A stretch of DNA of 64,000 nucleotides. Origin: a virus. Position numbers and translations under genes: made by a program. Of the stretch, positions 5,143-40,494 are shown one piece after another. The stretch lies in the IMG/VR virus record IMGVR_UViG_3300033145_003233, positions 434,001-498,000 of that record. One strand, given 5' to 3'. The notes beneath the pieces are model-generated. The model had not been told where the DNA came from. It was given only the letters and a program-made list of their open reading frames with translations, and ran no database searches. Position 1 is the first letter of the stretch. Each line of letters starts with the position of its first letter.

Positions 5143-8100
5143 TTAATTATTTGTAGCTGAAGTTATTGTGATAATGGGAGTAGTAATTGTTGTGCCAAAA
5201 TCCAAACTGTCATGAGGCAGAACCTCGGCCCGATACTGCTGACCCACAAGCACAATACTATTATCTATTGTAGATGTATGAGTTCCCAGACTGGTAGTAA
5301 TATGGCCTCTGTAATCTTCTACATTATATGTAGTTAATAAATTACCATCATGATCATTAAAAATATAAACTGGATCAGCAGGCCATTCTGTTTCTCCTGG
5401 ATTTTTTCTATACCATCTAATTTCTGTCTGGTCAAATTGTCCACTTTCATCCACGTCGCCAATAAAATTTACCTCAAAATCCAGAAAATACCATGTTAAT
5501 ATTACATCATTATGTTCATCATGAACATTGCGAATATAAGACACATTAGAAACAGTAGGAAGGGCATTTTGAACCACAACCACAGGGCTTGTAATAATAT
5601 CCCCTACAACATTACCTGTTTTTGGTATAACCTGAACAAATATAGAGTTAAGCATTCTAAGGCCATAATCCCTATAACTTTCTGTTCCCACTTCATTAGG
5701 CCAAATTTCATGAATCGGAGCTTGACCTACTCCCCTATCCTCTCCATATATTCCTCTCTTAAAGACTTCATCATTAACATACCATATAATCTCTGATTGG
5801 TTTTCTTGTCCATCAGAGAAAAATACTGTGTCTATAGGAGGATAAATAATGGCCTTTAAATCACCAGCTAACCTACTAGTGATCTGACCTTCATTATCAG
5901 ACATTACTGTTATTTGATCTAAAACAGGAGTGGATTCTACAACTTCTGCCATATTAGATTTTACCCTAGAGCTATATAATTCCCCATCGCTTACTTGTAT
6001 CTCAAAATAAATCCTATCTCCTGAATTCAGTATGGAATCAGATTGTTTTTTTATCCATGTCTCAATATCCTGGATATTAGTTAAATCGTCAGGATATGAT
6101 AAAGAAGTATTAACATAAATAGGATCCATTGGATCTGCTATGTCATTCCATTTGGTTAGATTTTCTAAATAATTTATAACGCTTCCATTAATAAACCACC
6201 GTATTCTCCTTTGAGATATATCTTCTTCTTCGAAATTAGAATCATAATACACATAAGAACTCTCAATAGTGCTAAATCTATTAGAAGTTTCATTTTCAAT
6301 AGCCACAGACTGAGCTTCAGGGGCTGCTTTGGCTAATGGTGGTAACAAATCTTTCCCAGTAGTATATAAATAACCAATACCATATATCTCTAATTCATCT
6401 AATTTAGTTTTATTGGTTAATTTCATACCTATTTTATATTCTCCCGCATTAATAATACCTATCTTATAATCTCCATCTTGATAGTCAGAAGATAATGCAT
6501 AATTTAACACTACTATCCCATCCCTAGGATATAATCTATAATAATTAGTTGGAACAACTTCATCTGATTTGTTATATAGAAGAACAGCAGAGAACGGGTC
6601 CCATGAACCGTATTCTGTTTTTAGTGTGAAGAGATCAACTTTTGCAAGAGGTTCTTGTTGAAACTCTGCTATATCTTGAGAGAATCTTATGGGAATTACT
6701 ACTTTTCCATTTTGATTTACTGCCGGTTGAGAATCAAGAGAATAATCGTTCCAGTTGTGGGAATCAGATTTAGCAACTCCGACATCAATCTGATGATCAT
6801 TAATTTCATTTGCGTCTACCGCTAAAGTTATTTGATATGGCTGAACATCTACTTCTTCTTTGTTGAGATATAAATAAGCTACCTTATAAGCATTATATGT
6901 AATTTGAACAGAAGTAAGAGCAGGAGAATCTGGAGTGGCATCAGATACATTATCATTAATACTAGTAATCAACACTATCTTAAATTTTATATATCTTGCC
7001 AATAAATTTTCAAAATCAACCGCATCTGCATAAGTGTAATTAGCATCTATAGCTGTAAAATTATAACCATCAACGCTCGTCTCAATAGCCCATGTAGCAT
7101 TAGAATCCGAAGAAGGGATAGTAAAAGATATTGCGATGTGATTTATTAACGCCTCTTCTCCCAAATCAGCTATAAATTCATATGTCCCATACCCTAGAGA
7201 TCCCACTGTCTCTCTGTAAAATATCCCTATAATATCATCTAGATAAGCTTCATCATTTACCGTAAGAGCTTGACCCCCAGTTAAAAATGATAATTTATTT
7301 ATATTTTTTGTATCAGAAGAGTTAGCCTTAACAGACAAAGTTACTGGCTCTACAATCGCCATATTAGATATCAATACAGGAACATTTTTATCTCCATCAA
7401 TGTCATTAACTTCTGTAATAGCATTATCAAGAGAAGAGATAGAAACATTAGACTCATTATCAGTAAACAAATAAATGGTCTTTCTCTTATCATCAACATC
7501 ATTGTCAGATAAAACTCTTGAAGCGACAACGATTGCATCATACATAGTTGAAGCGCCAAAAGGAGTAAAATTCTGAAGTTTATTTATCTCATCGATAATT
7601 GTTGAACTAGAGCTAGTATTGGTTCCCAAGACAGAACTAACAGATGGAACCCATTCAGAATCATTATAACAATCTATAATAATATTGCTATTTGTTCTTT
7701 TCTTTGTTTTTTGGAACAAAGAAGTTACATCATTAACTTCTTCTTCTTGAGGACTCGTTCCTCTATCAACTGTTCTATTATAAAAAGAACTTCCATTGAG
7801 AGAATAAACAGTTACCTCAATTGATAATTTATATGGACTCCTTATTACTCCTGCCTCTATTTTTATAACAACTGGTTCCTTATTAGTATCTGTAATCTGC
7901 TCATCGGTTCTAATACCTCCCTGAGAAACGATATTGATATTAGCCACAGTAGCTTCCTCTATAGATGATGTCTCTTCAAATAAATCTTCTGAACGAGGCA
8001 ATATAGTTATAACACATCTGCCACTATTTACAGGGATAGAGTCCGAAGTAAAAAGAACAGGATAAACAACGGTTTTGTCTTCCAATTGATTTAAAGTTTC

Positions 8101-8262
8101 TGTTTCTGTTGTTGAAGATTGATCTCTGAATTTTAGAAATCCCCTTACAACCACAGTTAATGGTTCTGTTACATATCTACCACCCTTTTTAATATCTATA
8201 GGTATAGAGACAGATTGTTTCCCATCTATCTTGCAACTGATTGTTTTATATTCATTTCCCAT
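5143..8262 (-). CDS. Tail-associated adhesin-like protein with degenerate vWA, discoidin-like and Ig-like domains
   Basis: 1039 residues, last gene of the tail operon. Residues near 190-350 look like a von Willebrand A domain: NIIIDCYNDS strand, then ASTMYDAIVVASRVL and TIYLFTDNESN, but the usual D-x-S-x-S metal site is not intact. Residues near 355-460 (ADLGEEALINHIAISF, ARYIKFKIVLI) resemble an F5/8 type C (discoidin) sandwich. The C-terminal half has three Ig-like units marked by I-x-W-(F/Y)-x-(N/K), for example RRIRWFINGS, EIIWYVNDE and EIRWYRKN, the same kind as in the protein at 28142-30247. There is no signal peptide or membrane segment, which fits a virion protein rather than a secreted one. 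No SD precedes the ATG, which lies 2 bp after the previous stop, so translation is probably coupled. Role in host binding is inferred from context. Confidence 0.7.
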   Translation of the reverse strand: MGNEYKTISCKIDGKQSVSIPIDIKKGGRYVTEPLTVVVRGFLKFRDQSSTTETETLNQLEDKTVVYPVLFTSDSIPVNSGRCVITILPRSEDLFEETSSIEEATVANINIVSQGGIRTDEQITDTNKEPVVIKIEAGVIRSPYKLSIEVTVYSLNGSSFYNRTVDRGTSPQEEEVNDVTSLFQKTKKRTNSNIIIDCYNDSEWVPSVSSVLGTNTSSSSTIIDEINKLQNFTPFGASTMYDAIVVASRVLSDNDVDDKRKTIYLFTDNESNVSISSLDNAITEVNDIDGDKNVPVLISNMAIVEPVTLSVKANSSDTKNINKLSFLTGGQALTVNDEAYLDDIIGIFYRETVGSLGYGTYEFIADLGEEALINHIAISFTIPSSDSNATWAIETSVDGYNFTAIDANYTYADAVDFENLLARYIKFKIVLITSINDNVSDATPDSPALTSVQITYNAYKVAYLYLNKEEVDVQPYQITLAVDANEINDHQIDVGVAKSDSHNWNDYSLDSQPAVNQNGKVVIPIRFSQDIAEFQQEPLAKVDLFTLKTEYGSWDPFSAVLLYNKSDEVVPTNYYRLYPRDGIVVLNYALSSDYQDGDYKIGIINAGEYKIGMKLTNKTKLDELEIYGIGYLYTTGKDLLPPLAKAAPEAQSVAIENETSNRFSTIESSYVYYDSNFEEEDISQRRIRWFINGSVINYLENLTKWNDIADPMDPIYVNTSLSYPDDLTNIQDIETWIKKQSDSILNSGDRIYFEIQVSDGELYSSRVKSNMAEVVESTPVLDQITVMSDNEGQITSRLAGDLKAIIYPPIDTVFFSDGQENQSEIIWYVNDEVFKRGIYGEDRGVGQAPIHEIWPNEVGTESYRDYGLRMLNSIFVQVIPKTGNVVGDIITSPVVVVQNALPTVSNVSYIRNVHDEHNDVILTWYFLDFEVNFIGDVDESGQFDQTEIRWYRKNPGETEWPADPVYIFNDHDGNLLTTYNVEDYRGHITTSLGTHTSTIDNSIVLVGQQYRAEVLPHDSLDFGTTITTPIITITSATNN

Positions 8263-8264
8263 TT

Positions 8265-11200
8265 TTATATATCAAATATAATATCTACAGTACTTTCCTC
8301 CCTAGCCGTAGTATATCCTCCCACCAAATAAATATAAGGAGTTCCTGTTACTCCAGAATAAACAGCACTAGCACCATGCTTTGCTTTCAATAAAGAAGCC
8401 ATGGCTAACGATGGATTATCATCGTAACTGCTTAGATAAGAAACAGTAGAACCTTGAATAGATATTTTTTCTAATATATCAAGACTTGAATCATCATCAT
8501 TAGCTCCTCCCATTATATAATAATCAGAAGTATCATATGTAGACGGATCAAGATCATATCTAACCATTGCTGATTGGAATTTAGGAATAGGAAAATCTCC
8601 GAGCAAACCACTTCCAAAATTAATCCATTCTCCTGAGGAAGGGACAGTAAAAGATTGTGCTATATTAATATAAAAATCTTCTATTGGATAAATAAACTGA
8701 TCATCAGATTCTATGGCCCCATTAAACACTATAATTTTATTATCATAAATTAAAGTTAAAGGGAATATTCTCTGATAAGTGTTTAATTCATTAGTTCTTA
8801 AAGCACCAGAATATTCCCAGCTATCATCACCTATAGAATATCTTAAAATTCTTTTATTATAATTACGTATGCTAAAATTACTTGAACTTATTACAGCATC
8901 CTGTATTCCACCTATAATATATATATAATTATTAGAGAGCACATCACAATATTGAGCAGCACCTAAAGCCACTCCTGTTTTTTCTTCCCATGCTCCTCCA
9001 TCACCAATAGATGGCATATCAGATAGCTGCTCCCAGGCCCCTGTATCAGTATGATAAACTTCAACCAGAGAGCTTACAGATATTTGACCACCCGAAGTAG
9101 AATCTGCACCTATCCCCCCTATTAAATATATATCATTATTTACAACAACAGACATACCTCCAAATCTATGAGATAACATAGGAGGACCAGTAGTCCATGT
9201 TTCTGTTAAAATATCATATATTTCATTCTTGTTAGACACATCTAAACTATTATTTTTCAACCCTCCCATAACATAAATCTTATTCCCTACCACACCAATA
9301 AATGAATCTCCTCTATTTTCCGACATACCAGGAACATGAACCCATTCATTATCAGAAATATTATATCTTGCCATAGTTGATGAAAATGGAGTTTCTTCTA
9401 TTATCTCAGCATCTTCATCAAGAACACTAGGTTCATCTACTAAATTAGGAAGAGTTACAATCTCATCTTTATAATCCAACGTAAGATTAAAAATAGCCCC
9501 GACATGCCTATCTGTTTTTTCATTTTCATCGTAAACAGAATATATTTCTAGATTCTCAGTTATACTATCTTCCTCTGGTATTTTTGTAGCGGCAACAGTC
9601 ACATCCACATAACTATATCCCTCATCTCCATCAGTTTGAGTATAATAAATACTACTGCCAGCTAAAAAGAAATTATTGCTAGAATTATTTCCCATAGCAG
9701 TATAAACAGGAGTGCCATCTGGAACAGGCTCTCCTTTCCATGATACTTGGACTCTAATATCTATATCAGAATTATGAAGCAACAAGGTATCATTATCTTC
9801 ATCTCGAAAACTATTATTACCTACCTCAGTCACAACTCCAACTAAATAATCATCATCTGGATCTCCATCAGATTCACTATAAAAATAATTAGTTACTCTT
9901 CTCCACCTCGCACTTATAGATAATGGTTCTGCCAAACAAATTGGACAAGGTGGGACTCCATTATAAAAAGTTCCTCCTCCAGATAGTACCAGCGGCTGAT
10001 CATTAACAAACAGAGTTGTTGTACCAGAAATATAAATAACCGGATTCCATTCAGGCAAATCGCAGTTCGTCAACATTCCACTATTTCGACCAAGACATAG
10101 ACAATCATTTATTTCCTTATCTCTATCACATTCCCCCTCTGGCACATATATTCTACCAGCACCAGGTACAAATTTATTAACCCTTATATAGATATAAGTG
10201 ATATCTGATTCTTCAGCATCATTTAATTCTATAAATGCGCTACCATTATCTATAAAACCATCATCGCCCACTGTCAAATAACGACTTCCTGTATATGAAT
10301 CTATTTCTTCATAAATCTCTCCATGCAATATCTCTACTTCATTGCCCCCTCCATTTATCTGCACAACCTGTCCAGAATTAAGCATTAATTCCTGCAAGTC
10401 ATCCTGAGTAGCACAGCTTCTAAAACAAGTAGCAGATGCAAAATCAGAAGAAAGAGCCACAGCTGGATTTCTACTAATTTTAATACGCTTATAATGAGAA
10501 CCATCTGCCCATAAAGGATTTTGATCGGCTATCATCCATCCACCACCACCCCATGTCTGAGTAAGCCCTGTTCCTCTCCACCCTCCATCTATCTCCATTA
10601 AAAACCTAGCTTTAAATTTATCATACTCAAGAGGATTATATCTTAATGACACAAGCTGTTTTGCACTAGCTGTCAATCCTTCATAAACTACAGTTACACT
10701 TATTTCATGAGTCTCATCCATCTCACTGTCACTTTTCGGAATAGGCCCTAGAAATACATTCCTAGCTACTCCGCTTCTGGTATAAGAATATACACCATTA
10801 GTAAGAGGGACATTATCAATAGAATAAATAGTTCTAACCTCTTGCCCTTGCAACTGAGAGATACCCCATTGAACAATAGTTTGATCAGAAGGATAAATAA
10901 TCAAAGAACGATCATAATCATTAGTCTCATAATTAGGGTAATCAGGATTAACAATAAATACTGTAGATCGTTGCTCAGACACATCTCTACCATCAACTTT
11001 AGGAACAGAAGCCTGAATATCCATTTTAAGAACACTTTGGAATAATATATATATATCTTTTATAGACGAATAACCTGCTTGAGATGCCTTTACAAACAAC
11101 CTAACTGCCTGAGGCATATCTGGAGCATACAAAGGGATATCAACATATGAAATAGGAGTTTGAACTATTGCCCCGCCATGCCCCACTTGCTCTTCAATTC

Positions 11201-14200
11201 CTTGTAAAATAGACATAACGTTGTCAGGAGGCGATACTGTTTGACTCACTTGTAACTTGTCCCCTTCAAGAGGAGAATTATTATCAGACCCTGCATTTCC
11301 ACACAAATTATCTGAAGCCGCATCCCAAACAGCTATCTGGACAGAACCAGACTCAATAGGCTCTCCTTTATATTTAACCTTCACCCTAGAAACAAAAGGA
11401 GCAGATGCTTTCATGTATATGCCATTAAAGCATTCATAATCAACACGTAACGTTTTCTCCTGTGTTACTTCATCAGTTGAATAATAATAGCATCTTTCGC
11501 ACACTGACTTATTATCTCTGTTCTCTAATTCTATTTCCCAAGGATTAGTAAAGCTTACTGTAATAGGTTTAGAATAATATTCAAATATATTGGAGCTACT
11601 AACCTCCTCAGTTTCTACCCCATCTATTTCATCTATGAGACCTTCAATAATACTAGCATATTCCTCTAATGCATTTGTTGGAGCGGCATCTGTATTAGGA
11701 GGAGTATATCCGTCCTTAGGAATAACCGCTTTCAACTGGATAGTAAAACTAGCACTTTGAATTTGAGAAATTATCCTATTATCAGAACTCATCTTCAAAG
11801 TAGCCTTCATAAAACCTTCATCTGTTCTAGTTACAAAGAAATCATAAGCATCTATATCATTAAAAGATATCAAGTTTCCTGAACCAAAAACATCATCAGC
11901 TTGAGATTCCCTAGTAATAGAAGCATTTATATACATTTTAATTAAGGTATCTTCTGATACAGGAGATCCAAATTCATCTGTAATGGAAGCATACAATAAT
12001 ATTGTTTGATCAAAATAAGCATCTATATCTTCTGGACTTTTAACAGGAGTTTTCCATCCTATGCTTATAGTGTTCTCATCAACTAACTCATAATTTAAAT
12101 TTTCAACTTCTACTAAGGGAATTGTTCCACCATTAGCCGAAGAGCTGGGAATACTAGCTGCATGTAAGAATTCCTCTACCTGCGTGCCCACAGAATTATA
12201 ATTAGAAGGTCGTCCATATTTGTCTATATTAACAATAGTATAATAAGCAGTTACATCATTAGTTAAATTTCTATGAACAAATTTTGTATCCGTAACAATC
12301 CCAGTAAAAACAAGTTGATTATCATTCCCTCCGTCCTTATCAACCACCGGATAATTAGAAGAAGAATAATAAATTTTAACCCTAGATATTCTAGAGTCTA
12401 CAGGAGAAGATTGAGACCATCTTAAATATATTTTTTTATTTCCTGGAGTTATTAATTGACCTACAGATGGCTCTTGTGGAGAAGGCAATGATGATGACAA
12501 CTCTACAAAATAATCTTCTATAATCGAAGGCGGAATTATTATTTCCAAAGACGGAGAATCAGATAGAAAACTCACATTACCTCTAGAGTTCTTAGAAAAT
12601 ATCCTATAATAATATTTTTCCCCAATTACGAAATCATCAGAATCTGAGACATAATGTTTCCCTAACAATACATTTTCTTGATATATGACCGTCCCATCTT
12701 CTTCCCAAGAAGGAACATGATTCTCATTTTTTAAAATTATAATTTCGCCATCTACATCATAATCCTGAGGCACTTCATATTCAAAAACTACTAATCTATC
12801 TCCATTATCTTCCTTAATCCCTATATCTTCAATATCTACTTCTACTCCATCATCATCAAAGATCGGATTAGAAAGAATCTGAGTTGAGATATATGTTGCG
12901 CCCCTAACAACATTATGAATACTAAGCTCTGTTATTTTTCCACGAAAATAATTATTTATACCAGATGTTAACCTATGAGCACCAATAGTAAAATAATAAT
13001 TGCCATCAGTCGCCAATGTACCTGTATCTGTCGAAGTACTTACTTGTTCTACTGCATCGATATAAAAAGTAGCAGCATTACTAAGCCCTGCCGCCTGATT
13101 CATAGCAACACAAACATGCTGCCATTTATAAAGCTCAACATTCCCAGTTGTCGTCCAATATCTCCCCTGTTGAGTCGGAGAAAAATTTCTATCTGCATAT
13201 AAGTTATTGCCTTCTACCCAAAAAGAAAAATTTTCTCTCTCTCCATTTGAAGAACTAACAATCACCATCTCATCAGTTGAATAAGGATAAATCCAAGCCA
13301 TTATGGTAAGAGTAGGTTGATCTCCATCAAAATCTCTATAGAGATTAGTTTCCCCATTAATAAAAGCATAATCATTCTCTCCATCAAAAAATAAACCAGA
13401 AGTTCCTGACGGAACGAATTGAGAAGAATACCATGTAGGATCTTCTTTATTAAAAACAGGAGTATTCCCGCCATCACTGAAATCGTATAAGTTTCTCCCC
13501 TCGCCTTCATCCATATGCCACAGAGCTATAATATTTTCATCTCTATTAACTCCGCTTCCAGTAAGAGGAATCCCCTTAGTTAAATCATCAGAATCTACAA
13601 TTGTTCTAAAAACTGATATTCCTCTTGGAACAACCCTTCCCTTAGGAACAACCTTTATTCTCACCCCTTCACTGAATCGCAAATCCTTATCATAAGTATA
13701 AACAGTATAATAATATGTTTGACCTTCTGTTAGATTCTCATCAAGAACCTTACTAATAAAACTATCTTGCACTAATTCTCCATCAACCACGGATGTTGGA
13801 TAACGACTGTTATTTCTGATAACTCTGATACCATCATAATTAGCATTATCATCCGCAAAGAACATGGCACTTAATGTATCAATATCATAAGGATTAATGC
13901 CCTCTTCTTCTATAATTCCAAAAAATAAAACATTAACAAAATTAGCCCCATATTCTACTAAATTATATGTTATATCCCCAGGATAGTTTATATCTATCTT
14001 CCTAATTAGATCTTTAGCTATTGTGTGTCTAAAACCATTACTATCATTCCATGTCATACTTCCGCTTTGATCTATAACAATTGTTACTATTCTATCTTCT
14101 AGCTCTAACTCTATACGTTCTGTCCCGTCATCTTCAGAAATAATTCTTGTATTATTTATCTTCTGATTTTCCTTATCGGAAAAAACATTAATAATCTCAG

Positions 14201-14372
14201 TTTCTGCATTTGAAGGAGGAAGGACCATCTTATTAGTATATTCATCAAAAGCATCAAAATCACTAGAGACACTAAAAGCGTGTCTTTTATCATAATTCAT
14301 ATGCCAGACATTTCTCTGTAAGGATGATTCCCCATTTAATATCTTATAATATTCTAATAAATTTAATGGCAT
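8265..14372 (-). CDS. Giant multidomain tail adhesin: vWA, LamG-like, Fn3 and C-terminal Kelch propeller
   Basis: 2035 residues. Near the N-terminus VTIVIDQSGSM (metal site DQSGS at 101-105) opens a vWA domain. LWHMDEGEG through ITELSIHN (about 280-490) is a LamG/concanavalin-like jelly roll. Several Fn3-like units follow (YYYRIFSKN, AYYTIVNIDKYG). The middle has long beta-rich Ig-like stretches with cysteine clusters (CERC; CDRDKEINDCLC; CPIC) that could bind metal or form disulfides. The last 330 or so residues contain Kelch repeats such as NKIYVMGGL, NDIYLIGGI, NYIYIIGGI and PYIYLVGGY, a probable six-bladed propeller. The only SD-like sequence is AAGAAAAG before the ATG. Such surface domains bind glycans or proteins, so this is a likely receptor-contacting appendage of the phage tail. 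Domain calls are from motifs by eye. Confidence 0.8.
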   Translation of the reverse strand: MPLNLLEYYKILNGESSLQRNVWHMNYDKRHAFSVSSDFDAFDEYTNKMVLPPSNAETEIINVFSDKENQKINNTRIISEDDGTERIELELEDRIVTIVIDQSGSMTWNDSNGFRHTIAKDLIRKIDINYPGDITYNLVEYGANFVNVLFFGIIEEEGINPYDIDTLSAMFFADDNANYDGIRVIRNNSRYPTSVVDGELVQDSFISKVLDENLTEGQTYYYTVYTYDKDLRFSEGVRIKVVPKGRVVPRGISVFRTIVDSDDLTKGIPLTGSGVNRDENIIALWHMDEGEGRNLYDFSDGGNTPVFNKEDPTWYSSQFVPSGTSGLFFDGENDYAFINGETNLYRDFDGDQPTLTIMAWIYPYSTDEMVIVSSSNGERENFSFWVEGNNLYADRNFSPTQQGRYWTTTGNVELYKWQHVCVAMNQAAGLSNAATFYIDAVEQVSTSTDTGTLATDGNYYFTIGAHRLTSGINNYFRGKITELSIHNVVRGATYISTQILSNPIFDDDGVEVDIEDIGIKEDNGDRLVVFEYEVPQDYDVDGEIIILKNENHVPSWEEDGTVIYQENVLLGKHYVSDSDDFVIGEKYYYRIFSKNSRGNVSFLSDSPSLEIIIPPSIIEDYFVELSSSLPSPQEPSVGQLITPGNKKIYLRWSQSSPVDSRISRVKIYYSSSNYPVVDKDGGNDNQLVFTGIVTDTKFVHRNLTNDVTAYYTIVNIDKYGRPSNYNSVGTQVEEFLHAASIPSSSANGGTIPLVEVENLNYELVDENTISIGWKTPVKSPEDIDAYFDQTILLYASITDEFGSPVSEDTLIKMYINASITRESQADDVFGSGNLISFNDIDAYDFFVTRTDEGFMKATLKMSSDNRIISQIQSASFTIQLKAVIPKDGYTPPNTDAAPTNALEEYASIIEGLIDEIDGVETEEVSSSNIFEYYSKPITVSFTNPWEIELENRDNKSVCERCYYYSTDEVTQEKTLRVDYECFNGIYMKASAPFVSRVKVKYKGEPIESGSVQIAVWDAASDNLCGNAGSDNNSPLEGDKLQVSQTVSPPDNVMSILQGIEEQVGHGGAIVQTPISYVDIPLYAPDMPQAVRLFVKASQAGYSSIKDIYILFQSVLKMDIQASVPKVDGRDVSEQRSTVFIVNPDYPNYETNDYDRSLIIYPSDQTIVQWGISQLQGQEVRTIYSIDNVPLTNGVYSYTRSGVARNVFLGPIPKSDSEMDETHEISVTVVYEGLTASAKQLVSLRYNPLEYDKFKARFLMEIDGGWRGTGLTQTWGGGGWMIADQNPLWADGSHYKRIKISRNPAVALSSDFASATCFRSCATQDDLQELMLNSGQVVQINGGGNEVEILHGEIYEEIDSYTGSRYLTVGDDGFIDNGSAFIELNDAEESDITYIYIRVNKFVPGAGRIYVPEGECDRDKEINDCLCLGRNSGMLTNCDLPEWNPVIYISGTTTLFVNDQPLVLSGGGTFYNGVPPCPICLAEPLSISARWRRVTNYFYSESDGDPDDDYLVGVVTEVGNNSFRDEDNDTLLLHNSDIDIRVQVSWKGEPVPDGTPVYTAMGNNSSNNFFLAGSSIYYTQTDGDEGYSYVDVTVAATKIPEEDSITENLEIYSVYDENEKTDRHVGAIFNLTLDYKDEIVTLPNLVDEPSVLDEDAEIIEETPFSSTMARYNISDNEWVHVPGMSENRGDSFIGVVGNKIYVMGGLKNNSLDVSNKNEIYDILTETWTTGPPMLSHRFGGMSVVVNNDIYLIGGIGADSTSGGQISVSSLVEVYHTDTGAWEQLSDMPSIGDGGAWEEKTGVALGAAQYCDVLSNNYIYIIGGIQDAVISSSNFSIRNYNKRILRYSIGDDSWEYSGALRTNELNTYQRIFPLTLIYDNKIIVFNGAIESDDQFIYPIEDFYINIAQSFTVPSSGEWINFGSGLLGDFPIPKFQSAMVRYDLDPSTYDTSDYYIMGGANDDDSSLDILEKISIQGSTVSYLSSYDDNPSLAMASLLKAKHGASAVYSGVTGTPYIYLVGGYTTAREESTVDIIFDI

Positions 14373-30248: not shown

Positions 30249-31226
30249 TTATAACCTTATAGTTTTATTCCTAAGCTCTAAAAATCCGTTTTCGATAGAA
30301 CTGTCCCCTACCGACAAGTCCAATACATCTTCTTCATTAGGATCAGAAAAAATTCTTCTATTCTCCCATAATAAAGGAGACCCTCTCAATATTTTTCCAT
30401 CATTTCTCCCCAAATAAACATAACTCATATCATCTATAGATGTAGTAACAGTTATAGTATCAGGATTGTTAAAATATATGCTAAATTTTTCTATGTACGT
30501 GTCGGTATATGTATCATTCACTACATATATTATACCATCATTAATTGCTCTTTGTATATCTGCCTCATTCCTATCAGTTACATTAAGAACAAATATATCT
30601 GAGATATAGCCATAATTTTTTGCCACATTATAAGCATAGCCGTCCAAACTATGATTTATATATAAGTCTAGAGAAGAACCATTTATAGTTGCTGGTAACG
30701 ATCCAGATACTCTCTGAAGAATTTGAAGCTTCCCATCAATATAAATATACAAAGCACTTCCATTATAAGTAATCCAGAAATAATGCCACATACCAGGAGC
30801 ATAATCCTCGGACGATCCCGAATAAACCTCATTATTAAACAACACTGTAAGATAATTGTATCCATCTGAAGTCGTAGTTTCTGTTAGTTTTATAATAGAT
30901 ACATTAGCACTACTTGTGTCATTAAAATTAAGCAATGGCATAGTAACAGAAAAAGGATCTCCCGTATCCTCATGAGGAACTAGTCCAGGATTAACTGGGT
31001 ACAGCCAAAAACCTAATGTAAAAGCATTACTTATATCCATAGGATAACCCGCAAGGGCAAGACCTTCGCCTAATAAATATTGGTCGTCCCTCATTGCATA
31101 CCCACCGCCATCTAATATTTGTGCAGAAATATTTGTGCCCTGTGGGGCCATATATGTCTGACTTACCTCCTCATAAAATGACGAAGTTTGAAATCTTAAT
31201 AATAATTTAGCAGAATCTATAAACAT
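30249..31226 (-). CDS. LamG/concanavalin A-like jelly-roll tail protein
   Basis: About 325 residues from ATG at 31226, chosen because it follows the upstream stop as TAA-A-ATG, a junction repeated elsewhere in this operon; a GTG at 31235 would add three residues, overlap the upstream gene by 8 bp and lacks an SD. One LamG-3-type domain fills the middle: FTLGFWLYPV near 75, MWHYFWITYNGSALYIYIDG near 150-170, and a YISDIFVLNVTDRNEADI end. This family binds sugars or sulfated glycans in other proteins. The remaining C-terminal 110 residues are beta-rich and unassigned. Short for this operon, it may be an accessory or tip protein. Confidence 0.75.
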   Translation of the reverse strand: MFIDSAKLLLRFQTSSFYEEVSQTYMAPQGTNISAQILDGGGYAMRDDQYLLGEGLALAGYPMDISNAFTLGFWLYPVNPGLVPHEDTGDPFSVTMPLLNFNDTSSANVSIIKLTETTTSDGYNYLTVLFNNEVYSGSSEDYAPGMWHYFWITYNGSALYIYIDGKLQILQRVSGSLPATINGSSLDLYINHSLDGYAYNVAKNYGYISDIFVLNVTDRNEADIQRAINDGIIYVVNDTYTDTYIEKFSIYFNNPDTITVTTSIDDMSYVYLGRNDGKILRGSPLLWENRRIFSDPNEEDVLDLSVGDSSIENGFLELRNKTIRL

Positions 31227-31227
31227 T

Positions 31228-32232
31228 TTACTCACTCACGCTATATTTAATATCCAATGTAATATCATCAATATTAAAAGCTTCAGCCCCTTTTTCCAAA
31301 GTTCTTTCAAGCCATATATAAACTACATCATTAACACCCAAATCACTAACAACAGGAAAACTACCCTCAGAAGCGAATCTAACTGGGGATGTCTCAGTTG
31401 GAGAACTAAACGGCAAAACATCATTACCAGTAGTAATTGGAGAAACAGTCCCAGTTTTAATCCTTTGAGCAGGAGCAGAATAAACCTCATAAGACACATT
31501 AGTAGTATAATCATAACTAGCAGATAAAGAGCTATAAAAAGTAAAAGTTCCAGTTACATTATCAAAACTACTAATTATTTTTCCCTGACCTGTTGCTCCT
31601 CCACTCAATATTTTTAAATAAGCTTCTTGAAAATAATTATCCGAATACAACCCTATAAGAGAAGTATCTATTACTTGCATCGTGCTCCAACTTGTAGATG
31701 TGCTTAACAAATACTGATTTGACGGTCTTTCCAATGCTATTTTAATATTAGCATCAGGACCCCTACTATTCTGTTTTAAATATATTGAAATATTATAAGC
31801 AGTTCTCTCCCAAGACGGATCAGAAGATGAAACATTTTTAGCAACAAGACATCTATATTGCTTATGATCATCATTAAAAACGTTGTTAAATATTTCTTTT
31901 GCAGATGAAGCCATAACTAAATCATTTTCTATATGCATATTAATTATGCCATTATATCCTCTTTCAACTACTGAAACAGAACCATTAGAAATAGGAGAAA
32001 CCCTAATAACCTCATTCCCTATATTGATATATTCTATATTTTGCCACTCTATCCAGTTCCCAGAAGATGGAGTAGATAAATTTATAGAAGTATCATATAA
32101 ACCTATAGTAGAAGCTAATTCGGTTTCTGGATACAACAAAGAATCGCTAGCATATCCTCCGATGGATTGAGAATAAATCGTCTGAGACATATTAGGCTCC
32201 AAACTAGTCAAATATAATTTAATAGTTGCCAT
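31228..32232 (-). CDS. Tail protein with phage IGxE/RGxxG domain
   Basis: 334 residues. Residues 45-110 have a module common in phage minor tail and baseplate proteins: a strand-turn ending INIGNEVIRV, a short hairpin, then VVERGYNGIINMHIENDLV with the RG..G.....H..(G/N)..V ending. This supports that the surrounding beta-rich genes belong to a tail rather than to a cell envelope. The rest is beta-sandwich-like without family match (about 120-334; YNISIYLKQN, KILSGGATGQGK). It begins 1 bp after the upstream stop. The SD is weak (GGGA). Likely a connector or short fibre component, inferred. Confidence 0.68.
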   Translation of the reverse strand: MATIKLYLTSLEPNMSQTIYSQSIGGYASDSLLYPETELASTIGLYDTSINLSTPSSGNWIEWQNIEYINIGNEVIRVSPISNGSVSVVERGYNGIINMHIENDLVMASSAKEIFNNVFNDDHKQYRCLVAKNVSSSDPSWERTAYNISIYLKQNSRGPDANIKIALERPSNQYLLSTSTSWSTMQVIDTSLIGLYSDNYFQEAYLKILSGGATGQGKIISSFDNVTGTFTFYSSLSASYDYTTNVSYEVYSAPAQRIKTGTVSPITTGNDVLPFSSPTETSPVRFASEGSFPVVSDLGVNDVVYIWLERTLEKGAEAFNIDDITLDIKYSVSE

Positions 32233-32233: not shown

Positions 32234-33778
32234 TTAATTTCCCGTATCTATCATAGTAAAAGTATAATTGCTACTAGCATCTTTGTCCATAACCATAATT
32301 TCAGATGAATTACTAAAGAATATATATAGAACATTTCCATCAGTTTTTATCTTATAAATATTTCTAGCATTCAAATATGAGCTATGTTCTGTAGAAATAG
32401 TAGATCCACCAAAGCTCAATAATATACCATTTTCTAAACCTAGAAATAACTTATTATCAAATACTTCCATAGAGTTAATAACAGAATCCGAAAAATATAA
32501 TGAATTTAAAGTAGCATTATCGGCATCTAAATATTGACTATCATTATCCGCTACCGATTCTACTTCCGAGACATTAAATCTCTGCAAGATACCTTTATTA
32601 TCACTATCTTTTATCGCTATATATAACATACTATTATAAAATTTTAATGAAGTAGCATCTCCATCTAAAGTAGATAATAATGTTAAATTTTTATACAATT
32701 GAGCATTAGCAGTAGAACTCAAAGCAAACGCCATATATAAATCACCATCAATATTATCATACAACAAAGATGTTACTTCTCTATCTCCTAAATTTTTATA
32801 AGTTCTAAAATAATTAGCATTAGGATCATTATAAATCATATTCCCGGCATAATCTTTAAATCTTACTTTAATCAATTTAACTCCATCATCTCCAGAGACA
32901 TCCCATGTAGACCACGAAGTTACATCCGCAAAGTCACCAGACTCTGGCTGCTCCTCTACCCCTACATCTTCTTGTTCAATTCTAAATTCCTTAACCGCGC
33001 TTGTTTTATCATAAAAATTCAAATTAACGATAAGATTTCTTTCCTTAATATATTCAGTATTGTCTGATATTTTAATAGTTCCTTTAGGTGGGGTAGTATC
33101 AATAAGAAAATAATTTATATTATTAATAATCAAATCACTTATAAAAACAGGAGATGACACATTTATATCATCTACCAACTCTATCTTTAGAGAATAGTCA
33201 GAAGCCGTAGAAAAACCGCTAACATCTAAATCAAATGGATCTGAACCAACCATAATATTGCTACGAAGCAAGGTCCAGTCTATGCCTAGACTTTCTGAAC
33301 TATAGTAAATTTGATAAAAAGATCTCTGAGAACATCTGCCCAGAATAGAACTATGATCAAATACAATAGGGATATACGAATAATAAGTAGCTCTCTGTTG
33401 AGGCTCAACCATAGATGGAGATGGCAATTCTTTATTAATAATGGCAAAATCAGCAGCAGAAAAAGATACTTTACTCCTCAATCCCTCATGATTAACCGCC
33501 CTGATACCAACTCGACACTGATTACCCTTAAGATTTTTATGTATGTTATAGGAATAAGAGGAATTTCCATATGGAATAGTAGCTATATGTAATAACTCCG
33601 GTTTTTTGTCGGCATCGTAAAAATCTGTAATAAATATTTCGTACCATAACATTTCCGAAGAAGGGACATTAGACGGTTCTATCCATTGAATACTTGCAAC
33701 TCCATCTGCCAATATCTCTCCACCATTAGGATATATAATCGTAGGAGCATCAGTTAATATGTTAAAAAGAACAGCCAT
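32234..33778 (-). CDS. Ig/Fn3-like tail protein with C-terminal propeller-like region
   Basis: 514 residues with SD AAGGTGAT before the ATG. The N-terminus (TIIYPNGGEILADGVASIQW) is the PNGGE...G...I.W form of a Kre9/Knh1-like Ig sandwich. An Ig-like domain of the DTTPPKGTIKI type begins near 255 with NLNFYDKTSAVKEFRI. From about 345 short repeats such as DGDLYMAFAL, NSMLYIAIKDSD, DNKLFLGLENG and GNVLYIFFSN look like an incomplete beta-propeller. No signal peptide. The protein is of a kind with its neighbours and probably a tail appendage; function not known. Confidence 0.68.
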   Translation of the reverse strand: MAVLFNILTDAPTIIYPNGGEILADGVASIQWIEPSNVPSSEMLWYEIFITDFYDADKKPELLHIATIPYGNSSYSYNIHKNLKGNQCRVGIRAVNHEGLRSKVSFSAADFAIINKELPSPSMVEPQQRATYYSYIPIVFDHSSILGRCSQRSFYQIYYSSESLGIDWTLLRSNIMVGSDPFDLDVSGFSTASDYSLKIELVDDINVSSPVFISDLIINNINYFLIDTTPPKGTIKISDNTEYIKERNLIVNLNFYDKTSAVKEFRIEQEDVGVEEQPESGDFADVTSWSTWDVSGDDGVKLIKVRFKDYAGNMIYNDPNANYFRTYKNLGDREVTSLLYDNIDGDLYMAFALSSTANAQLYKNLTLLSTLDGDATSLKFYNSMLYIAIKDSDNKGILQRFNVSEVESVADNDSQYLDADNATLNSLYFSDSVINSMEVFDNKLFLGLENGILLSFGGSTISTEHSSYLNARNIYKIKTDGNVLYIFFSNSSEIMVMDKDASSNYTFTMIDTGN

Positions 33779-33788: not shown

Positions 33789-36488
33789 TTATAAATTTTT
33801 AAAATATAATGGATTCCCAAATTTAAAATTATTATCATCCTGATCATAATATTGTTTAAATCCATCTATATTTAATACCTTAGATATTCTAGAAGTTTTA
33901 TATTTTTCATAAATCTCCTCAGGAGTCAAATCCTTGTTAGTAGCTATCTCACTATCACTAACCATCAAATTATAAAGATCAGAAGAATCGGGAAGACAAC
34001 CTTCCTGCCTAAGAGAATCTGGAAAAATAAGATCCACAAAAGCAGTTCCATCTTTATTAAATACTCCATCTTCTTCCGAGATAGTAAAAGAACCTGTAAA
34101 TGTTTTATGGTCTCCACTATTAATAAGAGTTTCTCCCCATTTATCATTGATACCCTGTTGCACAACATTAAATTTAATTGGATTAGTATCGCTATATGGA
34201 ATATGAGGAGTAACACTTTCATTATAATAAATAGGTTCGCTAAATATAACTTCAAACTCTATTGTAGATATAATAGTATTATCACTATCTCTTTTCAAAG
34301 ATAACACATATTGCCCATTATACATAGGAAATTCATATCTTTCAGAACCTATGCTATAATAAAATCTAAACACATGCTGAACAATATCAAAATTAACAAA
34401 AATTTCTAAACAGAAAGTATTAGTAATACCATACATCGTTAATACTTGACAACATATTCTTCTTATACCATTAACCTTATCTATCTTCCAAGGAACAATA
34501 AATCTAGAATTATCTATCCTATATGCATCATATAATATATCTTCATCCGTGATGTCATCTGTAACATCAGTAGGAGTATTGGGATTATAATATAAATTAT
34601 TATCAATATTAATCCACCCTCCCCAATTCTGATCATTAATATTCCTTAATCTAATAGCATAAGCCCCCTGAATGCCATCTATATCTAATCTTATCGACTG
34701 TTTAACTACAACAGGAACCACTTTATCATCATTAATTACTAATGATTTATCTACATCTTCTTCATATACTCTTACCTTGATTGTGTCATAAGAACTATCC
34801 AGATAAGTAATTAAGCCAGGATTGCATAAGCTCTCAAACGAAGCTGTTGGGCTATCAGTTGTTACCACTCCCTCCAAACTAATCGGTAAAGGACAAGCAT
34901 TGTACAATATTCGGTCTATTACGCTCCCCGCAATATAAAAGTTATTAGACTGATCGGTAATTACAATAGGATTATTAACAGAACTATTGTCCTTAATATA
35001 TAATTTGTCATACATCCCTTGGCCTGAAGAATATAACAAATCCTGAGAAGAGTCCCACATCGATCCATATATGCCTCCAACGCTGTTTCTTCTGCTCTGC
35101 CATATTATTTGAAAAATACCGAATATATTAGAAGATACATCCGAGAAAACAGATTGATCAGAACTATCAGTAACTTTTAAATCAGCCTTACCCTGACCAC
35201 TACTCAACCAATTATTAGCATCTTTATTATAACTCCATGAATATAAATCAACATCCTCACAATCTAAAATAAGAGAAATCGTCTCTAAAAAATTAAGATT
35301 TTGTTCTACAACATCATAAATTTCTACATCTATATAATATTGATTACCACAAATCAAAGGTGTCTCAAATATATCACTATTATTTATACGATGTGTCTTT
35401 TGAATTTCCGTAAATTGATGAGGTAATATTTCTGGATCATAAACAATATTCATTGTTGTTCCAGTATCAATCGTAACTCCGCTAGGAGGTATCTGTACAA
35501 AACTGCCATTATCATAAAACCATCTCTTATTATCAAGTAACGATGATGCCGAATATATTAAATCATTTTTAGAAGAATCAGAATAAAAATTAGCTCTAAA
35601 ATGAAAAAGAGTGCTAGACGAAGAATTACTACAACCAAACGAAACAATATTATCTTGATATGTCTCAGACGGACAATAGAACAAGGAGACATTGGCCGTT
35701 TCATAAGCTGGGATAGGTTCAAAAACGACAGTTACAGCCCTGTCTATAGACATATTAACAGTTAACAATACTCCGTGTTCTGAAATCCCGCTATCTAAAT
35801 CATATTGCCATTCTTTAAAATAATATCCATTAGCAGGAATAGGATTCAAATTCAAAATAAAATAATCACAATATTCTCCAGATGGTGGAGACACCGATCC
35901 CTTACCAACTATATTAACAACAAGATCATTAGTTGTACAAGGTCCAGTTGGTGTAAAATTAACTACAATTCTTCTTGATGAATATCCTATTAATGTAAAA
36001 TCTACATAAGCAGCAGTCGTCCCTAAATCAACTCCATCTAATTCCCAACTATCTATCTCCCATTCATCCGATGGTGTAGCAGAAACCCTAACCTGAGTAG
36101 CAACTAATAAAATACTGCCGCCTGCACAATTCACTGTGTAACCAGTAGGACTTGACAATTCTATACAACCATTACCGCTACCCACTTCTAATATTAAGTT
36201 AACATCCGGATGTTTAAATGAAACTGTCACATCTACATCTTGAGAAGGCATTAATATGGTTACAACATCTTGACCAGCAGTAGGTGTTGTGAAAACACCA
36301 TCAACAGTGCTATCCCAATCATCTACTTCCCATCCACTATCAGGCTGTGCTTTTAATTCAATAAAAACACCTTCTGTATAATTTGTAGCACATGATTCGC
36401 CTGGGGCCTTCCATGCATAACTACACCCAGGTTGCTGAATAGATCCCAGCCCCTCATCCACACTAGTTATTAAACAATATTCTGCCAT
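33789..36488 (-). CDS. Tail adhesin with three InlB-type B repeats
   Basis: 899 residues, AAAGGA before ATG. The first 255 residues hold three divergent InlB B-repeat-like units, each ending in a W-E/K-x-D/E-x-W and a V-x-(V/F)-x-F-x-P strand: GWEVDDWDS/VDVTVSFKHP, EWEIDSWELDG/RRIVVNFTP, YYFKEWQYDL/AVTVVFEP. Cysteine pairs in these units may form disulfides. A unit near 260-410 (LFHFRANFYSD...WF...IPPSG...DTGTTMNIVYDP) belongs to the module shared with 22210-28125 and 36499-40494. An IIWQSRRNSVGG stretch resembles propeller blades elsewhere in the operon. The C-terminal 400 residues are beta-rich and unassigned. InlB B-repeats are usual in bacterial cell-surface proteins, so they are an unusual choice for a phage tail; adhesion is inferred. 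Confidence 0.75.
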   Translation of the reverse strand: MAEYCLITSVDEGLGSIQQPGCSYAWKAPGESCATNYTEGVFIELKAQPDSGWEVDDWDSTVDGVFTTPTAGQDVVTILMPSQDVDVTVSFKHPDVNLILEVGSGNGCIELSSPTGYTVNCAGGSILLVATQVRVSATPSDEWEIDSWELDGVDLGTTAAYVDFTLIGYSSRRIVVNFTPTGPCTTNDLVVNIVGKGSVSPPSGEYCDYFILNLNPIPANGYYFKEWQYDLDSGISEHGVLLTVNMSIDRAVTVVFEPIPAYETANVSLFYCPSETYQDNIVSFGCSNSSSSTLFHFRANFYSDSSKNDLIYSASSLLDNKRWFYDNGSFVQIPPSGVTIDTGTTMNIVYDPEILPHQFTEIQKTHRINNSDIFETPLICGNQYYIDVEIYDVVEQNLNFLETISLILDCEDVDLYSWSYNKDANNWLSSGQGKADLKVTDSSDQSVFSDVSSNIFGIFQIIWQSRRNSVGGIYGSMWDSSQDLLYSSGQGMYDKLYIKDNSSVNNPIVITDQSNNFYIAGSVIDRILYNACPLPISLEGVVTTDSPTASFESLCNPGLITYLDSSYDTIKVRVYEEDVDKSLVINDDKVVPVVVKQSIRLDIDGIQGAYAIRLRNINDQNWGGWINIDNNLYYNPNTPTDVTDDITDEDILYDAYRIDNSRFIVPWKIDKVNGIRRICCQVLTMYGITNTFCLEIFVNFDIVQHVFRFYYSIGSERYEFPMYNGQYVLSLKRDSDNTIISTIEFEVIFSEPIYYNESVTPHIPYSDTNPIKFNVVQQGINDKWGETLINSGDHKTFTGSFTISEEDGVFNKDGTAFVDLIFPDSLRQEGCLPDSSDLYNLMVSDSEIATNKDLTPEEIYEKYKTSRISKVLNIDGFKQYYDQDDNNFKFGNPLYFKNL

Positions 36489-36498: not shown

Positions 36499-39400
36499 TT
36501 AAGTAACCGAATATAATAATTTAGCATAAAGAACCATATCAAAAATCTCATCATCTTTATGCGGCCTATAAGAAATAGACACAGTGTCCCCATTATTTAA
36601 AACCACCCCTAGAAGATTATCATCTGCATCATATGATAAACTCATAGAATCACCGTTAAGAAACCACCTATTTTCTGCTCCCTCAATTGATATAGTCTTA
36701 TACAAATTAGTAAGAGAGCTATCATGATAAAATTCTATTGAAAAGTTATAAGCACCACTCAAATCTACTTCAAATTCAAACGACACAAGACATTCAACAA
36801 TATAATCTTTAAATGCATCCAGCATCTTTCTTTCGCATTTATCCTCATCGCATGAGTAGCCACTTAAAGAACGAGCAGCATAAATATTATAATTTCCATC
36901 TCGATCATCATGCCATGTTATCATTCTAGAACCATTCCTATTTACCGAAACAGATGGTCTCAAACTATTACTCTCAGTGTTAGTTATCTTAGTGTCATAT
37001 CTAAACGGAGAAAGCTTATCAACAGAATTAGTATAAAATATATTCCAATATCTGTCCCTATTAGATTGCCAAGATAGATGAAGATCATTACATGTCCCCC
37101 CACTTACATCAACCGATTGATTAATACCCTCTATAGTAATAGGCACTTGCAGAAAACCATTATTAGAATATATTTTCTTAAAGTAAACAATGAAAGACCA
37201 GCTGCTATCATCTCCTCCAGATTCAACAGTCACGCTAATAATATCATATGATATTATATCTACATCAAAATTAAACCCCTGAGAAACAACCGGAGTAGAT
37301 ATAAACCCAGTATCATATAGAACAGTGCTACCAGCAGCTATAATTATTCTATCAGCTATGCTCGCCGCATCAAATTCTACACTAATTTTATCTATATCTT
37401 CGACATCATAAACAGAGTAAAAATTATTTCCAGCTAAGTCATACGATGACGCATAAGAAACAATATCCTCTTCTGCTCTAAAATTCAAACTTAACAGATT
37501 ATTAGATGGATTATAACGAGTTGTATTATCGGGGAGATTAATAGATGACTCATCGATTACTCTTAATTCCGTACTGTCCTGAACAGAAACAGGCAAATTG
37601 ATAATAGCACTATTATGAGCGAAAGTAGGAGAAGTAATCCGAACATCATTAATCTCCAAATTCATAGAGACGTTTTCAAAAACACCAAATTTGCTCGGAG
37701 ACATCTTATCGGCAACATAATAACCGCCATACGGAACCCCAAATCCCAAATCAAAATAATTATAATCATCAGACAATGTAGAAATAAAAGATTGAGAAAA
37801 CTTAGGAGCATCATCTATCAACAAAGTAATCGTGCCTATAAATTTATTATTATAAGTTCTGTCATAAGTATCTAAAACATTAGCAACCTCGTCTGAACCT
37901 ATACTTTTATAATTAAGAATAATAGTATAAGATGATAACTCATTAATTTCTAATATCTCTGGAAATTCTCTTACTATGATATAATCAGATCTCTCATCAC
38001 TTATATCTTCTGTTTTTATAAGGACCACTAATTTTGCCCTACCAGTAAAAATAACTTCTGTTTCTTCTGGAGTATAAGGATCTCCGTAACCACGGTCATA
38101 ATAAGCAGAAGGTGTTTCTATATTAGTAGCTCTAAAATATGATTTCTCAAAAAGCAATCCTAAAGAAAAATCTTTAAGATTATTATCACTCTTTAAAATT
38201 TCTATCCTAAATCTCTCTGTAGACGGATCTGGAGTATCTTTATATGACCCGATTATAGGAATAATCCTATCAAAGATATTATCGCTTTTACCTATTACAA
38301 ATTTATTATTATTTTTCACATATACCGGCTGATTATCTACATTCTCATCAATAGAAACTGTAAAACCATCCTTCCATGAATCAAATAATTTATCTATTTC
38401 TTTCTCTTCAATAATTATTCCATTATAGTCATCATCAGAGACTATAGAATTTGATTGATTAACAGTTGCCGCTAGTTTAAAAGACATCTGATAATTAAAT
38501 TGAGAATATGGAAAAACACCGAGAACACTAGGGTTATCAACAGAAGTTACTATCTCAAGCGGAAGAAAGGCCATCGCCTCTTCATCCACAGGATTAACCG
38601 TAATTAAAAGATCATTTAAATCTCCCGAAGAAGATCTTTCTGTAACGCTACCTATTGTATCTTCCTCAATCGCCCAGGCAACGGGAACTAAATCACTCGT
38701 CTCATATTCAGGTATAGGATTAGAACCACTCCCAACTACCCTTTCCATGGACGGGATATCGATAGAACTAAATGATTTAGTATCAGTAGATGAAAATTCT
38801 GCATATTTATCCACATAAGAAGAAACAGAAGATGAGACCAAAGATGGAGAAGAAGGGCCTATAACTCCATAATATATTTGACATATATCTCCCCTATTAC
38901 TTTCCCAAACAATATGCAAGTTATTAATAGAATCTGTATATGCCCGTGGATTTTTATTATTCCCGGTATCTGTTAATTGTTCCCATCCATAATTTTCACT
39001 ATCAAATAAAGATGTTCTCCCAGCAGAAAAAGAATAGAAAAATAATTGACTCTTAGTTTCTGCAACAGCTTCAGCTATCAGATAAACATATGTTTCTTCT
39101 TCTAATCCCACATATTTACTATTAGAAGCAACGCTAATATTTATAGTTTGAAGGTAATTGCCGCTACCGTCCCTGATATAAGGAATAGTTATACCATCCA
39201 AATACAAAGATGGATATATCGAAGAGCGATAAAAAACAGCATTAACGCAAAATAACCAATTGCTTATTTTAACATTAGTATTACCAACTTCTCCGGTAAG
39301 AGTCCTGACCCCAGTATATTCATCTGTCGTTCTTTCTACAATCTTAATACGTTGAAATCCTATCATCGCATTAAACAAAACAACATAAATATCTGAAACC

Positions 39401-40494
39401 GACGGACTATCTATAATTTGTAAAGCATTCCATATATCATCAGACACATGAATTTGAAAATCCTCATATGGCTCTTTGGGAGCTATTACAACATCTTTAT
39501 TAGCTACAATGTAATTATCCAAAACCGTTTTTTGAGTAGCAACAAACACCTTATTTATATTAAACCTAGGATCTCCAGCATCCTCATAATTTTTATCTGG
39601 AGAAGTATAAGCATGTAACGCCATACCATTATTTAATAATGTTACAGAATTATGGAATATTTTACAAATCTTATCTGCATCCCCACCCAAACTAACAGAT
39701 GCTGTACTACCTTCAGCACAACGCATCGGCAAACCAACAGATGGAACCGATATTCCAATATCTATCTCTTCTGGAGCAACTGGGGCCTCAATACAATCCC
39801 CAGGTATACTCCATGCACCAGGGACCACATATGCTGGATCGGCTGGATTACACCTAGGGTCAATCGCCGCATGCATAGCTAGAGTTTGAGGTAAAACATT
39901 AAGATACAAATTAGTAAATTTTTTATTAGTATAATTATCTTCTTCGGAATATAAGTAAACAGGCATTTGCCTTACTGCACTTAGCTCATTACTGCCTACG
40001 ACATCTCTACCTTTAAAATTAATTGACCCTGTACCATTTTTATTAATAATAATTCTAAATAATTTGTCATTTATAGAAATAGTACTCTTACTATTTGGCT
40101 TACCCACGATATGAATAGAACATAATCCATCCATCCCAATAAAAGATGGAGTTATAGAAATTTTCTCACTAAATTCACTCGCCTCATCCTTTATGCTAAA
40201 AATGGAAGGACAAATTTGAGCAGTTTTGTAAGAACCATCTGATTGCTTTTCTTCTATATGGGCAAAAATAGAAATAGCAGCTTGAGACGAATGTTCTGGA
40301 ATATTAAGATTCATTACCCCCATACAGGATTTGTTATCCATACGCTGAAATGATCCAATATCAACCTTAACCCCATGCGTAGCATTTTCCATATTAATGC
40401 GAAATTGTTTTGCCCCAATTTCAGAAATCTCAAATTTCAAAGATTTAGCATCTTCTAATATTCCAGATGGAGGATATAATATAAGATTAGCCAT
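36499..40494 (-). CDS. Large beta-rich tail protein with propeller-type blades
   Basis: 1331 residues. The N-terminal 200 residues form Ig-like sandwiches. Blade-like motifs NNLHIVWESNRGD (near 515) and DLHLSWQSNRDRYWNIFY, RMITWHDDRDGNYNIYAAR (near 1165-1235) are the same W-x-(S/D)-x-R pattern as in the propeller of 22210-28125. The last 90 residues (FSIEFYHDSS...RWF...VSISYRP) are a divergent copy of the FHFR/FY-D module. A cysteine pair GYSCDEDKCERK separates the two. The start ATG lies inside the end of the glycosyltransferase gene (8-bp overlap) with a weak SD, so translation is coupled. No enzyme domain recognised. Probable fibre or appendage. Confidence 0.68.
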   Translation of the reverse strand: MANLILYPPSGILEDAKSLKFEISEIGAKQFRINMENATHGVKVDIGSFQRMDNKSCMGVMNLNIPEHSSQAAISIFAHIEEKQSDGSYKTAQICPSIFSIKDEASEFSEKISITPSFIGMDGLCSIHIVGKPNSKSTISINDKLFRIIINKNGTGSINFKGRDVVGSNELSAVRQMPVYLYSEEDNYTNKKFTNLYLNVLPQTLAMHAAIDPRCNPADPAYVVPGAWSIPGDCIEAPVAPEEIDIGISVPSVGLPMRCAEGSTASVSLGGDADKICKIFHNSVTLLNNGMALHAYTSPDKNYEDAGDPRFNINKVFVATQKTVLDNYIVANKDVVIAPKEPYEDFQIHVSDDIWNALQIIDSPSVSDIYVVLFNAMIGFQRIKIVERTTDEYTGVRTLTGEVGNTNVKISNWLFCVNAVFYRSSIYPSLYLDGITIPYIRDGSGNYLQTINISVASNSKYVGLEEETYVYLIAEAVAETKSQLFFYSFSAGRTSLFDSENYGWEQLTDTGNNKNPRAYTDSINNLHIVWESNRGDICQIYYGVIGPSSPSLVSSSVSSYVDKYAEFSSTDTKSFSSIDIPSMERVVGSGSNPIPEYETSDLVPVAWAIEEDTIGSVTERSSSGDLNDLLITVNPVDEEAMAFLPLEIVTSVDNPSVLGVFPYSQFNYQMSFKLAATVNQSNSIVSDDDYNGIIIEEKEIDKLFDSWKDGFTVSIDENVDNQPVYVKNNNKFVIGKSDNIFDRIIPIIGSYKDTPDPSTERFRIEILKSDNNLKDFSLGLLFEKSYFRATNIETPSAYYDRGYGDPYTPEETEVIFTGRAKLVVLIKTEDISDERSDYIIVREFPEILEINELSSYTIILNYKSIGSDEVANVLDTYDRTYNNKFIGTITLLIDDAPKFSQSFISTLSDDYNYFDLGFGVPYGGYYVADKMSPSKFGVFENVSMNLEINDVRITSPTFAHNSAIINLPVSVQDSTELRVIDESSINLPDNTTRYNPSNNLLSLNFRAEEDIVSYASSYDLAGNNFYSVYDVEDIDKISVEFDAASIADRIIIAAGSTVLYDTGFISTPVVSQGFNFDVDIISYDIISVTVESGGDDSSWSFIVYFKKIYSNNGFLQVPITIEGINQSVDVSGGTCNDLHLSWQSNRDRYWNIFYTNSVDKLSPFRYDTKITNTESNSLRPSVSVNRNGSRMITWHDDRDGNYNIYAARSLSGYSCDEDKCERKMLDAFKDYIVECLVSFEFEVDLSGAYNFSIEFYHDSSLTNLYKTISIEGAENRWFLNGDSMSLSYDADDNLLGVVLNNGDTVSISYRPHKDDEIFDMVLYAKLLYSVT

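Follow-up and report, generated by a model that had tools for sequence, protein, structure and literature searches.

The 64,000-nucleotide stretch of viral DNA analyzed here (the window, G000:C1:434001-498000) covers positions 434,001 to 498,000 of IMG/VR virus record IMGVR_UViG_3300033145_003233, a genome of 547,943 bp (G000). Positions 5143-40494 of the window are filled by an array of eleven minus-strand open reading frames (ORFs), which, like their neighbors, are named by their start coordinate in the window (e.g., 22210 or 41614; table 1). We propose, with a probability of roughly 0.7, that this block forms the adhesion complex at the distal tail tip (baseplate) of a huge phage, probably with a non-contractile tail, in which recognition modules at N-termini are borne by a conserved scaffold. 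In this model, a gp27-type hub would close the tail tube, and the 41614 and 16332 proteins, which have an N-terminal domain in common, would probably dock at the hub region and bear the other proteins. One large conserved scaffold, and not eleven independent fibers, would be built from the eleven beta-rich proteins, while glycans or surfaces would be recognized by exchangeable N-terminal modules (LamG, FG-GAP, and InlB repeats, with enzyme-like domains in relatives) held by conserved C-terminal anchors. A vWA domain with a metal site, half of it from each protein, would probably clasp proteins 10 and 11 together, and a glycosyltransferase encoded in the operon may decorate the array proteins.

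The eleven ORFs sum to 11,755 amino acids (aa) and ~1,312 kDa per copy (1.31 MDa), in agreement with an initial annotation of this DNA, made from the letters alone, which had counted some 11,750 residues and a mass over a megadalton. Gaps between them range from −8 to +16 bp, and throughout the operon they stay between −8 and +26 bp, with the sole exception of 266 bp between the hub and 41614; because this gap contains a 77-aa ORF, the run of ORFs has no real break. A diverged ORF of 67–83 aa lies between the counterparts of hub and 41614 in eight other loci, and promoter and terminator scans gave chance level only. The array genes belong to a tail operon and lie next to a gp27-type hub and a 5,140-aa tape measure, as had been proposed. 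Pfam families in the array comprise LamG, Kelch, FG-GAP, Fn3, Reg_prop, Rha78A-type Ig, and InlB-type repeats, modules typical of cell-surface adhesins as had been pointed out; two of the eleven proteins match no Pfam family even at E 0.1. Other entries of the initial domain list fared less well: vWA is present only as two sub-threshold halves, Asp-box only as a single motif match in the 16332-22208 protein, and the NHL-like propeller lies not in the eleven but in the neighboring 41614-44850 protein, whose C-terminus is, from weak fold matches, a probable NHL-type propeller. None of the eleven proteins has a signal-peptide-like N-terminus, again as annotated (hydropathy scan of the first 40 residues): their peak 10-residue hydropathy is at most 1.8, versus 3.2–3.4 in two other G000 proteins whose N-termini are signal-peptide-like. 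This lack of secretion signals, together with the embedding in a tail operon, makes it highly improbable that the proteins are made in infection to act in, or be shown on, the infected cell rather than built into the virion.

Relatives were found in viral contigs (IMG/VR) by tail-tube, 41614, and hub queries: G029 (102,984 bp), G030 (333,623), G031 (350,866), G032 (87,575), G033 (219,188), G034 (186,298), and G035 (147,268). Portal, tail-tube, 41614, and hub-alignment queries were productive. Viral contigs scanned with the hub or the Dit-like protein singly gave nothing, as the pattern method requires exact peptides, and no hub was found among portal contigs, probably because these are fragments. 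The gene-order search suggested by the initial annotation was positive: G029, G031, G032, and G033 contain all eleven genes and the glycosyltransferase in the same order. Across six related contigs the array unit is thus complete in four, fused in one (G030), and reduced in one (G035); G034 ends soon after its 41614 homolog, and array content is not judgeable there. The order connector-like, tail-tube-like, tape measure, Dit-like, hub, 41614, glycosyltransferase, array is kept in independent contigs, and phage genes are conserved on both sides of the array as far as the contigs extend, with tail and replication genes flanking it. Bacterial cell surfaces commonly carry domains of these types, and the initial annotation had allowed for host surface genes in a misassembled contig. 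However, contigs obtained independently in different metagenome projects show this same order, flanked on either side by syntenic phage genes, signal peptides are absent, and the sole match in a bacterial genome, L112 (JAIPJN010000018.1), is a 12.9-kb contig of a Patescibacteria metagenome-assembled genome consisting entirely of this tail block (its first part, with nothing bacterial), and probably misbinned. A host origin therefore has a negligible probability, and misassembly is excluded for practical purposes.

Gene fusions suggest that the products of neighboring array genes sit or act side by side. In G030, 36499 is fused to 33789, 28142 to 22210, and the C-terminal part of 14385 to both 8265 and 5143, while 16332 is split into two genes. 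G035 lacks everything from the glycosyltransferase through most of 22210; there, the remaining C-terminal part of 22210 is attached to the N-terminal part of 41614, 8265 and 5143 are fused, and the 16332 homolog is retained. This reduced array suggests a core composed of the N-terminal part of 41614, the C-terminal parts of 22210 and 14385, and 16332, 8265, and 5143. The relatives provide a natural series (fused, split, and reduced) for testing which parts are essential.

In the five full arrays compared (four for the Dit-like protein), mean pairwise identity is 0.38–0.61 for 41614 and the eleven array proteins, compared with 0.49 (Dit-like protein) and 0.44 (hub). Because its conservation is similar to that of these two proteins, the array looks like an assembled scaffold and not like a cassette of free fibers. 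Insertions of at least 60 residues relative to the window are all N-terminal, after residue 2–7: relatives of 33789 have 243–311 extra N-terminal residues, the G031 homolog of 32234 has an extra N-terminal LamG, and the 22210 homolog bears an additional N-terminal LamG in G031 and a metallophosphatase in G032 (a calcineurin-like phosphoesterase domain; L101:15186-16715). Four genomes have an FG-GAP propeller as the N-terminal half of 14385, and G033 has a Ser-rich domain there; G030 and G035 lack this half and have separate ORFs of 575 and 330 aa in its place; the 330-aa ORF of G035 has no family match and is beta-helix-looking by eye. Even conservation combined with N-terminal variability is the pattern expected of a scaffold with exchangeable recognition parts. 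The host-recognition apparatus of the initial annotation is thus supported only in part: the genes are a conserved unit of the tail operon built from adhesin-type domains, but recognition by all eleven proteins is not supported, most of the mass being scaffold-like and the variability lying mainly in N-terminal modules and one slot. These modules and the 14385 slot would be the few segments most likely to set host range, and a conserved scaffold with plug-in modules offers a testable model of how an uncultured huge-phage lineage may meet its hosts. Far from the array, LamG, collagen-like, and fiber-like virion proteins are encoded at 533–547 kb and 1.5–5.0 kb of G000 and are other candidates for host binding.

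The diversity of adhesin-type domains would also fit eleven separate receptor-binding fibers, each with a different surface ligand and together giving a broad host range. This arrangement has a precedent in the Klebsiella jumbo phage phiKp24, for which fourteen putative tail fibers are described (PMC9700779), a number that makes the earlier statement that known tails usually use one to a few fibers too strong. The near-even conservation, the fusions of neighboring genes, and the strictly kept order are not what such fibers would lead one to expect, and we regard this alternative as unlikely; independently variable fibers are disfavored by the even conservation. phiKp24 resembles the system proposed here in that a jumbo phage has numerous adhesion proteins at one end of its tail. 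Its fibers, however, are putative depolymerases of beta-helical type, connected through T4 gp10-like domains (PMC9700779), whereas the array has propellers, Ig and vWA domains, and lectin-like domains, and its C-terminal parts are conserved. Pfam/PHROG searches identified no beta-helix depolymerase family in the eleven window proteins (the one beta-helix-looking ORF is that of G035) and no T4 gp10-like domain in the window, the latter by sequence-family search only.

The vWA domain appears to be split between two adjacent proteins, which is new here. VWA_2 profile positions 2–50 are found in the 8265 protein and positions 52–106 in the 5143 protein, each below the curated cut-off. Joined, the halves of the window reach 41.8 bits with PF13519 (cut-off 27), a score that is partly additive by construction, and cover positions 2–169 of the 174 of PF00092. 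Each of the seven joined sequences gives a VWA_2 match at E ≤ 1, the distant G030 one with only 16.1 bits, and the metal-site residues D22, S24, S26, S122, and D152 (DxSxS, Thr/Ser, Asp) are invariant in the seven genomes. In both G030 and G035 the two halves are on one chain, ~1,900 residues apart. PDB searches gave weak vWA matches only with the joined profile and no matches with the C-half alone. From the complementary halves, the joined profile score, the invariant metal-site residues, and the fusion in G030 and G035, we predict that a single vWA domain, including its metal site, is shared between proteins 10 and 11, each contributing half. Pilus-tip adhesins such as RrgA, GBS104, and Mfa5 (PMC7835359) similarly combine a vWA metal-site domain with Ig-like domains and with insertions inside the vWA domain; the fused forms found here differ by a vWA insertion of ~1,900 residues, and in the window the domain is cut into two genes. 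If true, locking a virion machine by means of a domain and metal site to which two gene products contribute would be unusual.

Tail-tip adhesion complexes are already known, and it is the size and domain make-up of this one that we rate as unusual. Somewhat short of even odds, and hence tentatively, we suggest that it combines a megadalton tail-tip scaffold, an inter-protein vWA lock, and exchangeable N-terminal modules on C-terminal anchors, the reverse of the usual fiber polarity. No description of this block was found in open-licence papers, and its novelty is provisional.

Several points weigh against the tail-tip model. The presence of the proteins in virions, their docking order, receptor binding, the tail type, and the role of the glycosyltransferase are deduced from genes alone. 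The AlphaFold2 model of the hub is poor (mean predicted local distance difference test, pLDDT, of 52), as is the AlphaFold model of 41614 (48.5), and the Dit-like protein is so named from its position alone. The sheath family PF04984, the sole one searched, was not found in G000, G029, G030, or G031, and a divergent sheath is possible. Lastly, the family evidence comes mostly from five fairly close genomes, and the middle block of the array is dispensable in at least one lineage (G035).

Table 1. Features of the Array and of the Neighboring Tail Genes (window coordinates)
Feature	Length (aa)	Coordinates	Strand	Remarks
Array protein 1	1,331	36499..40494	-	No family; ~90-aa domain at C-terminus similar to one in 33789 and 22210
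Array protein 2	899	33789..36488	-	N-terminal InlB-type repeats; Pfam Flg_new_2 6e-18
Array protein 3	514	32234..33778	-	
Array protein 4	334	31228..32232	-	
Array protein 5	328	30249..31235	-	Weak LamG-like; Pfam LamG_3 1e-5, slightly under cut-off
Array protein 6	701	28142..30247	-	Ig-like, Rha78A-type; Pfam 1.7e-11
Array protein 7	1,971	22210..28125	-	Regulator-type propeller; C-terminal anchor 1621-1971
Array protein 8	1,958	16332..22208	-	N-terminal domain common with 41614, Fn3 repeats, propeller-like C-terminal half
Array protein 9	645	14385..16322	-	N-terminal FG-GAP propeller slot; FG-GAP_2 6e-55
Variable slot of protein 9		~15333-16250		
Conserved C-terminal domain of protein 9		14388-15257		
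Array protein 10	2,035	8265..14372	-	vWA N-half, LamG, Kelch propeller (Pfam)
Array protein 11	1,039	5143..8262	-	vWA C-half; rest Ig-like by eye, no Pfam match
vWA N-half		13908..14135	-	In 8265 protein; DQSGS metal-site motif (codons 14058-14072)
vWA C-half		7210..7686	-	In 5143 protein; GAS (7549-7557) and TDNE (Asp 7459-7461) motifs
Group-1 glycosyltransferase		40487..41587	-	Pfam/PHROG; within operon
Adaptor-like 41614 protein	1,078	41614..44850	-	Best conserved; N-terminal core 1-331
Small ORF	77	44862..45095	-	Read from sequence
Tail hub	1,119	45117..48476	-	AlphaFold2 and Foldseek
Dit-like (distal tail) protein	1,320	48487..52449	-	Syntenic in relatives
Tape measure	5,140	52468..64000	-	C-terminal 3,843 residues within window; full ORF to coordinate 67887

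The assignment of the hub comes from fold comparison. Its model matches T4 gp27, Mu gp44, the MuSo2 43 kDa protein, VgrG, and Tal in Foldseek, with E-values down to ~1e-7; nearly all PDB matches at E ≤ 0.001 are hubs or VgrG or Tal proteins, and the BFVD matches are phage hub and tail proteins. A gp27/VgrG-type fold is most likely in the C-terminal ~400 aa of the modeled protein, and region ~183-477 is probably a ConA-like jelly roll. The protein is thus like gp27-type hubs in fold, but differs from them by its 1,119 aa, its large N-terminal part with jelly-roll-like fold matches, and the absence of detectable sequence similarity: no sequence relative of the hub was found in isolate phages or the PDB, and neither the hub profile nor the Dit-like profile matched any PDB sequence. 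Isolate phages likewise had no relative of the 41614 or 22210 proteins, and the 8265 protein had a single match there, to a Kelch-region stretch of one Paenibacillus phage. The domain common to 41614 and the 16332-22208 protein corresponds to the N-terminal ~110 aa of 41614. The glycosyltransferase occupies the same place in G029, G030, G031, G032, G033, and L112. The Dit-like protein, which has no family match, is 28–54% identical to its relatives over full-length alignments, with short matches only in G035.

The tape measure ORF sits between two chaperone-like genes and the Dit-like and hub genes, and contains internal repeats of 25 residues (~49 copies) and 156 residues (~5 copies). Relatives' tape measures share homologous N-terminal and middle segments and have only 959–1,787 aa, the surplus in G000 consisting partly of these repeats. 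As a rule of thumb, each tape-measure residue accounts for ~1.5 Å of tail length, and 5,140 aa would predict a tail of ~0.7–0.8 µm. Such a very long tail, together with additional LamG-type virion proteins encoded at 533–539 kb of the same genome, could point to array proteins that decorate the tail shaft or the capsid and not the tip. However, the array, full or partial, is kept in relatives with tape measures of only 959–1,725 aa and lies directly behind the hub, which makes decoration very unlikely.

The tape measure is preceded by a pair of small genes and by the gene for a tail-tube-like protein (PHROG 290) that resembles Gordonia phage major tail proteins (E 6e-5, 26–27% identity over 60%), its PDB match being weak. 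From this siphophage-like match and the negative PF04984 search, we infer that the tail is probably non-contractile. G000 shares with the huge-phage clades of Al-Shayeb et al. (PMC7162821) and with moraphages (PMC12619734) a metagenomic origin, huge size, and very large predicted proteins. A further resemblance to moraphages lies in their several glycosyltransferases. Moraphages, however, encode sheath, gp25, and gp6 (PMC12619734), whereas here PF04984 was not found, and gp25 and gp6 were not specifically searched. An identification of G000 as a moraphage was dropped, because moraphages have contractile tails. Near the connector-like and tail-tube genes, the protein encoded at G000 507137-508162 has actin/ParM-like sequence features by eye and is 63–85% identical in relatives.

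Elsewhere in the genome, 27 tRNA genes are clustered at ~171.7–183.6 kb of G000 (L019), and a LAGLIDADG-like ORF (by eye) is present at 9782-10549. The portal gene of several relatives (L027:2958-5243 and loci L036, L038, L039, L050, and L061) spans ~1 kb more than that of G000 for the same residues, and these longer spans look as if they hold an intein or an intron.

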